A stretch of 37,060 bases of DNA, from positions 1 through 37,060 of the forward strand of contig VHCZ01000032.1 of the NCBI GenBank assembly GCA_016871535.1, written 5' to 3'. The DNA comes from Verrucomicrobiota bacterium. GTDB lineage: Bacteria > Verrucomicrobiota > Verrucomicrobiia > Limisphaerales > SIBE01. The notes beneath the pieces are model-generated. The model saw nothing but the letters and a program-made list of their open reading frames with translations. It did no database searches and was not told the origin of the DNA. Below, in pieces: positions 5,373 through 37,057 of this stretch; within the stretch, counting starts at the first letter, position 1; the number at the start of each line of letters is the position of its first letter. The position numbers were made by a program, and so were the translations under genes.

Positions 5373-5645
5373 GCACTGCGTGATTTTGGAGTTGAGAGTG
5401 TTTTGAGTTGAGAGTTGAGGAATTTCAGTGGAGGTGGGGCCCTTGAGCGAGGTAGCGCAGGCTTTCGAGCCTGCGGGTTCACGGAGCTTTCCAGCTCCGT
5501 TGCGCGAGCCGCGCCGCGAGGGGACTGGAAAGTCCCCCTGACCGGCAGGCTGGAAAGCCTGCCCCACAAGCCAGTGAGATGCGCGTGCGCCCCAGTGTGC
5601 AATTCCTTGTTGCCGCGATTTCGGAATTCCGTTACTCAAGAGCGC
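5373..5645. other. Intergenic region holding a dispersed palindromic repeat
   Basis: No gene is apparent. The first 60 bases contain GAGTTGAGAGT words, followed by the repeat at 5447-5569. An ORF from 5415 reads through this repeat into dprA, but its extra N-terminus is repeat-encoded and lacks any domain. Confidence 0.6.
5447..5569 (+). repeat. Dispersed four-hairpin repeat, copy A
   Basis: This unit is nearly identical to 31262-31395 in the same orientation. It is a string of small palindromes: CAGGCTTTCGAGCCTG, GGAGCTTTCCAGCTCC, GGGGACTGGAAAGTCCCC and GCAGGCTGGAAAGCCTGC. The hairpin stems are the most conserved parts. Copy B has an internal duplication of the GGCTGGAAAGCC word. It lies just upstream of dprA and downstream of the phosphoesterase gene. 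Confidence 0.85.
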
Positions 5646-12213: not shown

Positions 12214-12401
12214 ATCCAGTTCCCCTCCTGGGTGGGGCGAAGGGGTGGGTTCGTTCATGGAGAGTTTCCTGTTCCTTTCGGACTTGCACTCGGCCCATGA
12301 ACCCGGTAGGGCGAGTCCGTCCCGGCGAGCCGCTCGACGTGCGTGGAATACGTCCGACTCGGCTCGCTGGGACAGGCTCGCCCCACCGTCTCGTTCATGG
12401 G
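12214..12401. repeat. Modular palindrome array, second locus
   Basis: Two units of the same design as 10451-10823. The first ends in CGTTCATGG at about 12260. The spacer 12261-12292 is nearly the same as the first spacer of the other locus. The second unit (12293-12401) is bounded by CCCATGAACCC and GTTCATGGG and carries the hairpin payload GGGCGAGTCCGTCCCGGCGAG ... CTCGCTGGGACAGGCTCGCCC. That payload recurs inverted at 34668-34754 without the outer arms. The rest of 12156-12413 has no gene. Confidence 0.82.
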
Positions 12402-31101: not shown

Positions 31102-31178
31102 TGGTCGGGGCGGTGAGATTTGAACTCACGACCTTCTGAACCCCATTCAGACGCGCTACCAAGCTACGCTACGCCCCG
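31102..31178 (-). tRNA. tRNA-Pro (GGG)
   Basis: The reverse strand gives a full cloverleaf: acceptor CGGGGCG pairing with CGCCCCG, D-arm GCGTAGCTTGGTAGCGC, anticodon stem TCTGA/TCAGA with loop ATGGGGT (anticodon GGG), and T-arm GTGAG TTCAAAT CTCAC. The 3' ACCA is encoded. The total is 77 bases. It reads proline codon CCC, and probably CCU by wobble. Confidence 0.96.
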
Positions 31179-31180
31179 AC

Positions 31181-31663
31181 CAAGAGTCGCAACCGTCAGT
31201 TGCGCCGAGTCAGGATAGTAGGCGCGGGGAATCCGAATTCAATGCTTTTCGCGAGGCCATTGCGAAGTAGCCCAGGCTTTCGAGCCTGCGGGTTCACGGA
31301 GCTTTCCAGCTCCGTTTCCCGAGCGGCACTGCCGGGGACTGGAAAGTCTCCCAAACCGGCAGGCTGGAAAGCCGGCTGGAAAGCCTGCCCCACAACGCCA
31401 AGGTTCTTGCATGAGAAAAAGCGGATGACATCAACAGCTCCCACGCCGTGCGACTGAGGTTCAAGTTCCTGAGGCCATCTGACCCTTTGAGGTGAACCAA
31501 CCCGGCTTTGAGTCAGGATCGCGGCGGCAAGAACGGCCAATGCCAATGCCCCCACCCGAATCCGATCCACGCAATCTTCTTTCTGCTCCTGGTCGTCATG
31601 CTTGCTCGTGGCCGTCTTCCCAGCCCCGGAATCTCTCTTGCCTCCGTGTCCTCCTGTTGAAAT
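31181..31663. other. Gene-free region with dispersed repeat
   Basis: The region between tRNA-Pro and the peptidase stop holds the repeat at 31262-31395. About 31470-31570 reads on the minus strand as a short hydrophobic leader (MDRIRVGALALAVLAAAILT) that runs into the repeat; I treat it as debris at most. Confidence 0.55.
31262..31395 (+). repeat. Dispersed four-hairpin repeat, copy B
   Basis: Copy of 5447-5569 in the same orientation, with the same four palindromes in the same order. An extra GGCTGGAAAGCC word duplicates the last hairpin, and the middle spacer is altered (TTTCCCGAGCGGCACTGCCG against TTGCGCGAGCCGCGCCGCGA). Confidence 0.85.
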
Positions 31664-34487: not shown

Positions 34488-34790
34488 AAGCTGTCCGGTT
34501 CATACAGGCGAAGAGGCCGCCTCACTACACGTGGTTTGTTCAACGCTGCCTCTTTTTTGCCGCGAGCTGGAAAAAACAGGGCGAGTCCCACTGGCGAACC
34601 GCTCCAGACGGCGCTTCAGCGCTTTAAGGCCTCAACGACTATGACTGGCGGTTCTCATTTTGATTTGGGTAGGGCGAGCCTGTCCCAGCGAGCCGTCTTC
34701 AACGTGTTCCTGATACGTCGGACACGGCTCGCCGGGACGGACTCGCCCTACCGATGTGAACTGAGGCGCTATTTGCAACAAGGTTTTCGA
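34488..34790. other. Gene-free region upstream of feoA
   Basis: This 303-base gap contains the GGGCGAG hairpin payload at 34668-34754 and no coding sequence. A feoA promoter would be expected in 34488-34620; I see no clear boxes. Confidence 0.5.
34668..34754. repeat. GGGCGAG hairpin payload, second copy
   Basis: GGGTAGGGCGAGCCTGTCCC, then AGCGAGCCGTCTTC at the left pairs with ACGGCTCGCCGGGACGGACT, CGCCCTACC at the right. In reverse orientation it matches the payload in the array unit 12293-12401. Here it stands without the CCCATGAACC arms, showing that payload and arms move or vary independently. Confidence 0.82.
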
Positions 34791-35071
34791 TTAAGAGCGT
34801 GTCCGAAAATTGCGCGGGGTCCTGCGGCGAGGGATTTTGGCTGTGGCCAAGGCGGCGAGGTCCGAGCATCCCCAACGCGGGCTGTAAGGACCGAGCCAAC
34901 GCAGGCCACGGACAAAAGACCCGCCGCCCGGAGGGTTTTCGCGCCAAAGGCCGCCTGGCTTCGTTGCTCCTCAGTCGAAGATCCAGGGAGGATATTCTCC
35001 TTCGCTGCGCCTCGCCATCCGGCCTTTGGCGCGAGAACAGGACCCCGCGGAATTTTCGGACACGCTCTAAG
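34791..35071. repeat. MITE-like element with TTAAGAGCGTGTCCGAAAA ends
   Basis: The left end TTAAGAGCGTGTCCGAAAAT and right end ATTTTCGGACACGCTCTAAG are inverted repeats continuing into GCGGGGTCCTG / CAGGACCCCGCGG. They resemble the ends TTAAGAGCCTGTCTGAAAA of the 124-271 element. Inside, GCGCCAAAGGCCG (34941) and CGGCCTTTGGCGCG (35021) flank a core that is similar to the window-end repeat. There is no convincing ORF within the 281 bases. The element is most likely a composite: a MITE carrying the other palindromic repeat. Confidence 0.78.
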
Positions 35072-35523: not shown

Positions 35524-37029
35524 GTGAACCCAAGCGCGCAAACCAGCCCTGCTTGGAAACCCAAGCACGCCTGGCAAATGGTCCGCCGCGTCGCTCCGCC
35601 CAAGCGGTTCGCGCGAGAACGGATCGGCGATTTTCGCGAGATCGACCTCCTGTTCGACGAACGCGCGGTGCGGGAGCAAGCCAGCCGCTGCTTACACTGC
35701 CCCGAACCGATGTGCCGCACGGGTTGTCCCCTCGCCAACCGCATCCCCGAATGGCTGGCTCTCGCGGCCGACGGGAGATTTCTGGAAGCCTCCGCGCTCT
35801 CGCACTCGACGAGCAACATGCCGGAAATCTGTTCGCGCGTGTGTCCTCAAGATCGGCTTTGTGAAGGCGCGTGCATTCTGAACGCCCGCTCGGATCCCGT
35901 CGCCATCGGCAGCGTGGAGAAGTTCATCAATGAGTACGCGCTGGCGCGCGGAGAAATCCACGGCTGCACCGCCCCGCGCAACGGAGGACGAGTCGCCGTC
36001 GTCGGTTCGGGGCCGGGCGGGCTGGCCTGCGCCGACGAGTTGGCCAGGCTGGGCTACGCGGCCACTGTCTTCGAGTCGCAGCTCGTGCCCGGCGGCTTGC
36101 TCATGACTGGCATCCCTTCGTTCAAGCTGGAGCGAGGCGTCGTGGAGCGGCGCTTGGGAGTTTTGCGGGAGCGCGGCATCAACTTTCGCCTCGGCGTCAC
36201 GCTCGGGCGCGACCTTTCATTGGGCGAACTCCGGGGCCGCTATGATGCGGTCTTTCTCGCGATTGGGGCTCAGGTGCCAAAGGTTCCGGACGTTCCCGGC
36301 GTTGAACTGAAGGGGGTCGTCGATGCCCTGCCGTTTTTGGCCCAGACGAAAGTGGGCGCGCTGGCAAAAGTGCCTCCCATCGATGTCGCGGGCAAAAGGG
36401 TCGCGGTCCTGGGCGGGGGCGACACGGCGATGGATTGTTTGCGCTCGGCCATTCGCCGCGGCGCGCGCGAGGCGGTCTGCCTGTACCGGCGCGATCTCGC
36501 CAACATGCCCGGGAGCCGAAAGGAATACTACAACGCCCTGGAAGAAGGCGCTCAGTTTCATTTTCTCACGAATCCAATCGCCATCGAAGGCAACGCGGAG
36601 GGCCAGGTCGCGCAGGTTCATTGTGTGCGCATGGAGTTGGGCGAACCGGATGCGAGCGGCCGGAGAAAACCCAGGGCTGTTCCCGGGTCCGAGTTCGTGG
36701 CCTCCGCGGAGCTTGTCCTCATCGCTTACGGATTCGATCCGCCGCCGCTGTCCGGCGTGAGTCCTGTTCTCAAGATCGCGACGAACGAATGGGGCGGAGT
36801 GATCGTCAATTCGGATCAGACCACGAACGTGCCAGGGATTTTTGCCGGCGGGGATTTGGTCCGCGGCCCAAGCCTGGTGGTTCACGCGGTGCGAGATGGA
36901 CGGGCCGCTGCGGCAGGGATCGACCGCTATCTTAGTGGTCCATTTCATAAATACGCTCACGTTCGCGGCAAGGGATTTTTCGGCCAGACGAGGCGCGAGC
37001 GACGAGCATATCCCGAAGTGGATCTGTAA
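35524..37029 (+). CDS. GltD-like NAD(P)H-dependent oxidoreductase (glutamate synthase small-subunit family)
   Basis: The family moves electrons from NADPH through FAD and Fe-S clusters, in glutamate synthase and related partners. The product is up to 501 residues from a GTG at 35524; an ATG at 35578 is possible. Cys-rich Fe-S motifs are SRCLHCPEPMCRTGCPLANR and CSRVCPQDRLCEGACILN. FAD binding is GRVAVVGSGPGGLACADELA, NADPH binding is KRVAVLGGGDTAMDCLRSAI, and the second FAD contact is GIFAGGDLVRGPSLVVHAV. The family core ends near IDRYLSG (about 36936); the last 30 residues are encoded by the window-end repeat and may be foreign or an artefact of the contig end. No gltB large subunit is visible. 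Confidence 0.9.
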   Translation: MNPSAQTSPAWKPKHAWQMVRRVAPPKRFARERIGDFREIDLLFDERAVREQASRCLHCPEPMCRTGCPLANRIPEWLALAADGRFLEASALSHSTSNMPEICSRVCPQDRLCEGACILNARSDPVAIGSVEKFINEYALARGEIHGCTAPRNGGRVAVVGSGPGGLACADELARLGYAATVFESQLVPGGLLMTGIPSFKLERGVVERRLGVLRERGINFRLGVTLGRDLSLGELRGRYDAVFLAIGAQVPKVPDVPGVELKGVVDALPFLAQTKVGALAKVPPIDVAGKRVAVLGGGDTAMDCLRSAIRRGAREAVCLYRRDLANMPGSRKEYYNALEEGAQFHFLTNPIAIEGNAEGQVAQVHCVRMELGEPDASGRRKPRAVPGSEFVASAELVLIAYGFDPPPLSGVSPVLKIATNEWGGVIVNSDQTTNVPGIFAGGDLVRGPSLVVHAVRDGRAAAAGIDRYLSGPFHKYAHVRGKGFFGQTRRERRAYPEVDL

Positions 37030-37057
37030 GGAGCAAGCAACGAAGTCTGGCGAAAAA
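36934..37057. repeat. Right copy of window-terminal inverted repeat
   Basis: Exact inverted copy of bases 1-124. It begins inside the GltD-like gene and encodes its last residues (HKYAHVRGKGFFGQTRR...). From its start to the last base of the window is 127 bases, close to a common assembler k-mer size, so a graph-derived contig end is plausible. Confidence 0.9.

Follow-up and report, generated by a model that had tools for sequence, protein, structure and literature searches.

A superfamily of MITEs with a conserved hairpin interior in Verrucomicrobiota

The contig analysed here over its whole length of 37,060 nucleotides (VHCZ01000032.1, from the Verrucomicrobiota bacterium assembly GCA_016871535.1; hereafter the window) carries a repeat at 34941–35033 whose core resembles that of an inverted repeat at the two ends of the window, whilst the flanking arms differ in sequence. 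Since the arms appeared complementary within each copy, the original prediction argued from these two copies that the pairing matters. This raises the question of what kind of element the repeat belongs to, whether its pairing is kept in other copies, and on which strand the paired structure is formed.

The element around the repeat and the ends of the window

The repeat is a real paired hairpin, with arms (34935–34959 and 35014–35038) that are 88% complementary. The minus strand folds as RNA at −56.8 kcal/mol, a value reached by 0 of 200 shuffles (z about −5.6 to −5.7, the two strands being similar), and at least 40 near-identical copies occur in the same genome. The predicted hairpin therefore stands, but the well-formed conserved structure lies on the minus strand and not on the strand as first noted, and its extent has to be enlarged: the repeat forms the right-hand hairpin within an element of 273 bp at 34795–35067 (MITE A), which holds a second, convergent hairpin at 34825–34926.

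MITE A was delimited by end-to-end alignment of 47 copies with both flanks. A target-site duplication, TAA (34792–34794 and 35068–35070), encloses a left terminal inverted repeat (TIR; 34795–34824, plus strand) and a right one (35038–35067, minus strand), both placed by inverted-repeat and TIR comparison. Between them lie hairpin 1 (type 1; 34825–34926), a central mini-hairpin of the form CCC-GGA-GGG (34927–34935) and hairpin 2 (type 2; 34936–35037), which is the repeat itself. By model hit and by fold, the strand that forms the mismatch ladder described below (the ladder strand) is the plus strand for hairpin 1 (model hit 34836–34914) and the minus strand for hairpin 2 (model hit 34949–35026). 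TNA flanks both sides of all 47 copies, and the duplication is identical in 41 of them. Short and devoid of coding capacity, MITE A is a gene-less transposable element of the MITE class. A lone small RNA was rejected as a reading of the locus, as the symmetry and mobility fit a transposon.

The window ends (1–127 and 36931–37057) form a 127-nt inverted pair with 99% complementarity, each containing half of a second element, MITE B, cut by the contig end: hairpin B2 and TIR at 1–123 on the minus strand (model hit 3–79 on that strand; TTA at 124–126), and TIR and hairpin B2 at 36935–37057 on the plus strand (model hit 36979–37055; TTA at 36932–36934). The half element has at least 40 full-length matches in the same genome, mostly at or near contig ends, and complete copies are found at two loci (L048, L059). 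The window thus stops where it does because the assembly broke inside a high-copy element, and the superfamily to which MITE A and MITE B belong accounts for many contig breaks in these MAGs. An assembly artefact as the source of the elements themselves was rejected, since there are copies in contig interiors, flanked by clean duplications. What had been described as a terminal repeat of the window is indeed a related copy with a common core and different arms, although the pairing of the terminal arms is imperfect, with one extra bulged C, and the two copies compared belong to two different transposable-element families and not to one.

Other features were seen at these ends. A GltD-like gene (35524–37029) runs into the right MITE B copy, its last 31 codons and stop being MITE B sequence. 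At 127–267 another structured MITE, with TIRs GGGTCTGTCTGAAAACTG / GAGCCTGTCTGAAAAATG and TTA on both sides, abuts MITE B and lacks the ladder core; a lone TIR akin to it lies at about 31063, beside a tRNA gene (31105–31178).

Superfamily plan, distribution and mobility

MITE A and MITE B share a plan with further families (C to G), whose TIRs differ from those of both: a TIR of about 31 bp, a type-1 hairpin, a CCC-NNN-GGG mini-hairpin, a convergent type-2 hairpin and a second TIR, in about 270–280 bp. Among 33 elements examined, 17 have TIRs of 29–35 bp and one more has a TIR of 16 bp; the length of 17 elements with a clear TIR is 270–283 bp. In the other 15 of the 33 the scan as set found no clear TIR, many of these being single-hairpin, degraded or contig-end cases, and several single-hairpin elements of this kind show long outer stems. 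Across 191 hits in five alignments, all 48 of the 48 neighbouring hit pairs within one element are convergent, with gaps of 32–37 nt (34 nt in 32 pairs); no same-strand neighbouring pair was found in this set, and its sole divergent pair consists of two adjacent elements. The mini-hairpin, as CC(C)-NNN-(G)GG, occurs at 34 of the 35 distinct centres, which are related rows and not independent ones, and the sequence of the interior centre is similar across families.

The original prediction had proposed a covariance model built from genome copies. Such a model (R1), built from four hairpins, gave at least 150 matches in the same genome; in 20 stretches of 20 kb picked regardless of hits it gave 15 matches with E<1e-4, mostly in convergent pairs. 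R1 matches were present in 20 of 57 relatives (21 of 58 with the source genome included), and a second model (R2), built from 82 hits and used with stricter filters, matched 20 of 287 other genomes of the phylum (21 of 288 with the source genome). Convergent pairs with the same spacing also occur outside the order of the window (genomes G218, G286, G135, G109 and G314). With R2, no match at E≤1e-4 was found in 17 unrelated genomes, which had come up through a chance match to a short pattern; these 17 negatives alone constitute the test, the 12 positive genomes of that comparison having been chosen for their matches. Of the 12, two are titled Planctomycetota and one plain bacterium, the phylum being known by title only. 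Likewise, the MAGs with R1-confirmed matches are titled Verrucomicrobia, Verrucomicrobiales or Pedosphaera, except for a few titled Planctomycetota, Akkermansia or plain bacterium. The superfamily belongs to Verrucomicrobiota, and both it and its fold are well supported. With gene context taken from a home-made, crude gene caller, MITE A is oriented with the upstream gene in 19 cases and against it in 22, and intergenic copies are weakly enriched between convergent genes (9 of 36, p 0.045, or 10 of 27 by a second count).

The mobility of MITE A is seen most directly where it interrupts the same MITE C hairpin, at L018/L067 and at L090. At L018/L067, where both sides are visible, TCA is duplicated around MITE A within MITE C; the same MITE C site is uninterrupted at L011, L078 and L031. 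Since the same interrupted form is found at several places, the composite of MITE A in MITE C itself seems to have moved. A nested MITE A was observed at this same place of MITE C at L018, L067, L090 and L102.

A candidate source of transposase is a 951-bp IS5-type element (L255:1434–2384), which we take to be a member of the IS1031-like group of the IS5 family. Its transposase (DUF4096 and DDE_Tnp_1) accounts for the genome's sole DUF4096 match. Over the first 18 letters its TIR (AGAGCCTGTCCGAAAATT) and that of MITE A (AGAGCGTGTCCGAAAATT) are identical at 17; among the families, such a match of TIR to transposase was found for MITE A only. MITE A thus has the TNA duplication and a near-identical TIR in common with the IS5-type element, but carries no transposase gene, whilst the one autonomous copy examined has no ladder hairpins. 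Given the TNA duplications and the near-identical resident TIR, IS5-type transposases probably move MITE A, and on this sequence evidence mobilisation in trans by IS5-family enzymes is likely. A TIR-G-like pair 820 bp apart at L128 encloses an ordinary 210-aa frame and other repeats and no transposase.

The hairpins are placed symmetrically, with model hits starting 41 bp from each MITE A end, as would be expected if they were subterminal transposase binding sites, one per element end. We regard this as highly improbable: the IS5 copy lacks hairpins, which are therefore not needed for IS5 transposition as such; elements with a single hairpin exist; and the hairpins are common to families with unrelated TIRs.

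Hairpin fold, arm pairing and strand asymmetry

Four hairpins of two families adopt a common fold on the ladder strand, comprising from the outside an arm, a 2×3 loop, helices of 1–5 pairs, a GCA-U / C-UGU-like stem and a loop; on the reverse strands of the same four hairpins this common fold is absent. The ladder, near the hairpin tip, consists of short helices separated mostly by 2×2 GA/AA or GA/GA mismatches. The GCA/UGU stem opens with a G.U pair in 35 of 56 rows of alignment A4 and in 62 of 67 rows of alignment A5; in the remaining rows that pair is G-C or A-U. The hairpins are about 100 nt long and have conserved feet (RAGG / CAACGMMG).

The arms change in sequence together. In A4 (56 distinct rows) 83.8% of cells are paired and both sides have changed in 202, against 72 in shuffles and at most 78 in slid registers, with a covariation score of 0.46 against 0.14 in shuffles; in A5 85.2% are paired and both sides have changed in 152, against 48. 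The covariation score exceeds that of every shuffle and of all slid registers, the rows of A4 and A5 being related, such that these counts are not counts of independent events. As both alignments had been fitted to the search model, the arms were also paired without it, for the 173 hairpins whose flanks are both available, the 18 of the 191 hits that lack flanks being set aside. At least 9 of 12 Watson-Crick pairs are formed by their own arms in 150 of the 173 hairpins, and by arms swapped between unlike families in 252 of 2814 combinations. Together with the covariation beyond shuffles, this bears out the original prediction that the pairing matters; copies with non-pairing arms, which it had named as the refuting case, are absent save for a handful of weak rows (a score of 7 or below in 10 of 173).

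Such pairing might in principle arise neutrally, by quasi-palindrome template switching that keeps the arms complementary whilst common descent keeps the core. That all stems, TIRs included, drift in sequence yet stay paired, and that the interior centre is alike across families, would agree with this. Template switching would, however, remove mismatches and favour neither strand. In these elements the GA ladder keeps its fixed place, as does a GA step about 14 pairs out, and the arms do show a strand bias. On the ladder strand of 47 non-redundant arms, at positions 4–12, which the search model leaves unpaired in that register, G.U outnumbers A.C by 19 to 2 (p 2e-4) and GA outnumbers CT by 16 to 1, after removal of the 23 of 173 arms in which fewer than 9 of 12 positions pair. 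Looser cuts over positions 0–12 keep the direction, with G.U to A.C at 51:13 (cut of 7) and 62:18; positions 9–13 alone give 8 and 5, which places the bias mainly in the inner arm. A double-stranded DNA cruciform or neutral arm-copying predicts no bias of G.U over A.C or of GA over CT. A neutral origin hence appears improbable to us, and the two biases indicate that each hairpin seems to be selected as a single strand, its own. That the interior fold is kept while its letters change suggests that the fold itself has a job.

Possible function and relation to known systems

G.T is better tolerated than A.C in single-stranded DNA as well, so the asymmetry fits RNA and single-stranded DNA alike. 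Our best guess is that the hairpin works as RNA, the main rival being a function as single-stranded DNA, in which the hairpins would form in the lagging strand, or else in an intermediate of transposition, and be bound by an enzyme, as REP/REPIN sequences are by tyrosine transposases. The two inverted hairpins per element do resemble REPINs, and the genome contains 13 Y1-transposase matches; the ladder hairpins are nevertheless absent from 12 of these 13 loci, the exception (L244) being an ordinary MITE A copy, and a separate GTAG-tagged palindrome, with 39 matches in 400 kb, lies near one Y1 gene. TNA duplications, moreover, point to a DDE and not a Y1 transposase. In 27 of 34 centres the mini-hairpin loop is GNA or TNC, which is compatible with single-stranded DNA and equally with RNA, since hyperstable mini-hairpins are formed in DNA by C-GNA-G and in RNA by C(UNCG)G. 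A single-stranded DNA function is accordingly doubtful, if less so than a neutral origin.

The reading that we consider somewhat probable combines a MITE superfamily and a MITE A moved by IS5-type enzymes with hairpins that act single-stranded, each through its own ladder strand and most likely in the form of RNA, made when transcription of a neighbouring gene reads through the element. Because the two hairpins lie on opposite strands, either orientation of insertion gives one correct hairpin. The mismatch ladder would, by conjecture, be a docking surface for a host factor, and such docking could make insertions tolerable or affect the surrounding transcript, in its stability or its termination. 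More tentatively, and short of an even chance in our judgement, the ladder hairpin may be a phylum-wide functional RNA module whose shape has persisted through changes in the TIRs, and hence the transposases, of its carrier MITEs; it could, for example, be recognised in either orientation by a host RNA-binding or transcription factor that spares the transcript from the harm of insertion. MITE interiors are usually regarded as debris; here, across a phylum, conservation resides in the interior fold and change in the ends. If the fold works as RNA, each genome supplies hundreds of natural variants with which to find its partner, and makes it possible to test directly whether an RNA under selection can be borne by a non-coding transposon.

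Among known systems, REPINs and their RAYT genes are characterised by a GTAG or CGTC tag at the end of a 20–40 bp palindrome and by a position beside Y1 genes. A REP/REPIN identity was rejected, since the ladder hairpins are about 100 nt long, have RAGG / CAACGMMG feet and no GTAG or CGTC tag, and lie inside a TIR element with TNA duplication, away from Y1 (RAYT) genes. An attC site was likewise set aside as an unlikely reading, and an origin from a plasmid or phage was rejected, as no match was found. Above the gathering cut-off, Rfam found only a tRNA in the window; for L059 and L002, searched by E-value, every match obtained fell short of it.

Excerpts of a published account describe REP, BIME and REPIN sequences as high-copy, mostly intergenic hairpin repeats in inverted pairs (PMC3733652), features which the ladder hairpins share as far as that description goes. 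The same excerpts present ERIC, NEMIS, RUP and Nezha as non-coding bacterial MITEs of 70–300 bp with TIRs and strong secondary structure, found near genes, and credited there with being transcribed and with either stabilising mRNA or accelerating its decay (PMC3733652). The ladder MITEs are similarly non-coding, short and strongly folded, with TIRs and a position near genes; unlike these elements, as the excerpts portray them, they have a defined interior (ladder hairpins, mini-hairpin, fixed spacing) common to families with unrelated TIRs across the phylum, and show strand-specific covariation. The portions surveyed of the open-licence literature on Verrucomicrobia MITEs and REPs, IS5 MITEs, structured RNAs, tandem G-A mismatches and Pedosphaera contain no account of a ladder-hairpin family.

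Two other repeats of the window were observed. At 34668–34752 and 12304–12387 lies a GTAG-tagged palindrome pair (GGTAGGGCGAG...) resembling a REPIN; GTAGGGCGAG occurs 39 times in a 400-kb sample of the genome, and there is one occurrence close to a Y1 transposase gene (L243). A long repeat at 5447–5570 and 31262–31395, with pieces about 88–91% alike, contains short hairpins with CTGGAAAG loops.
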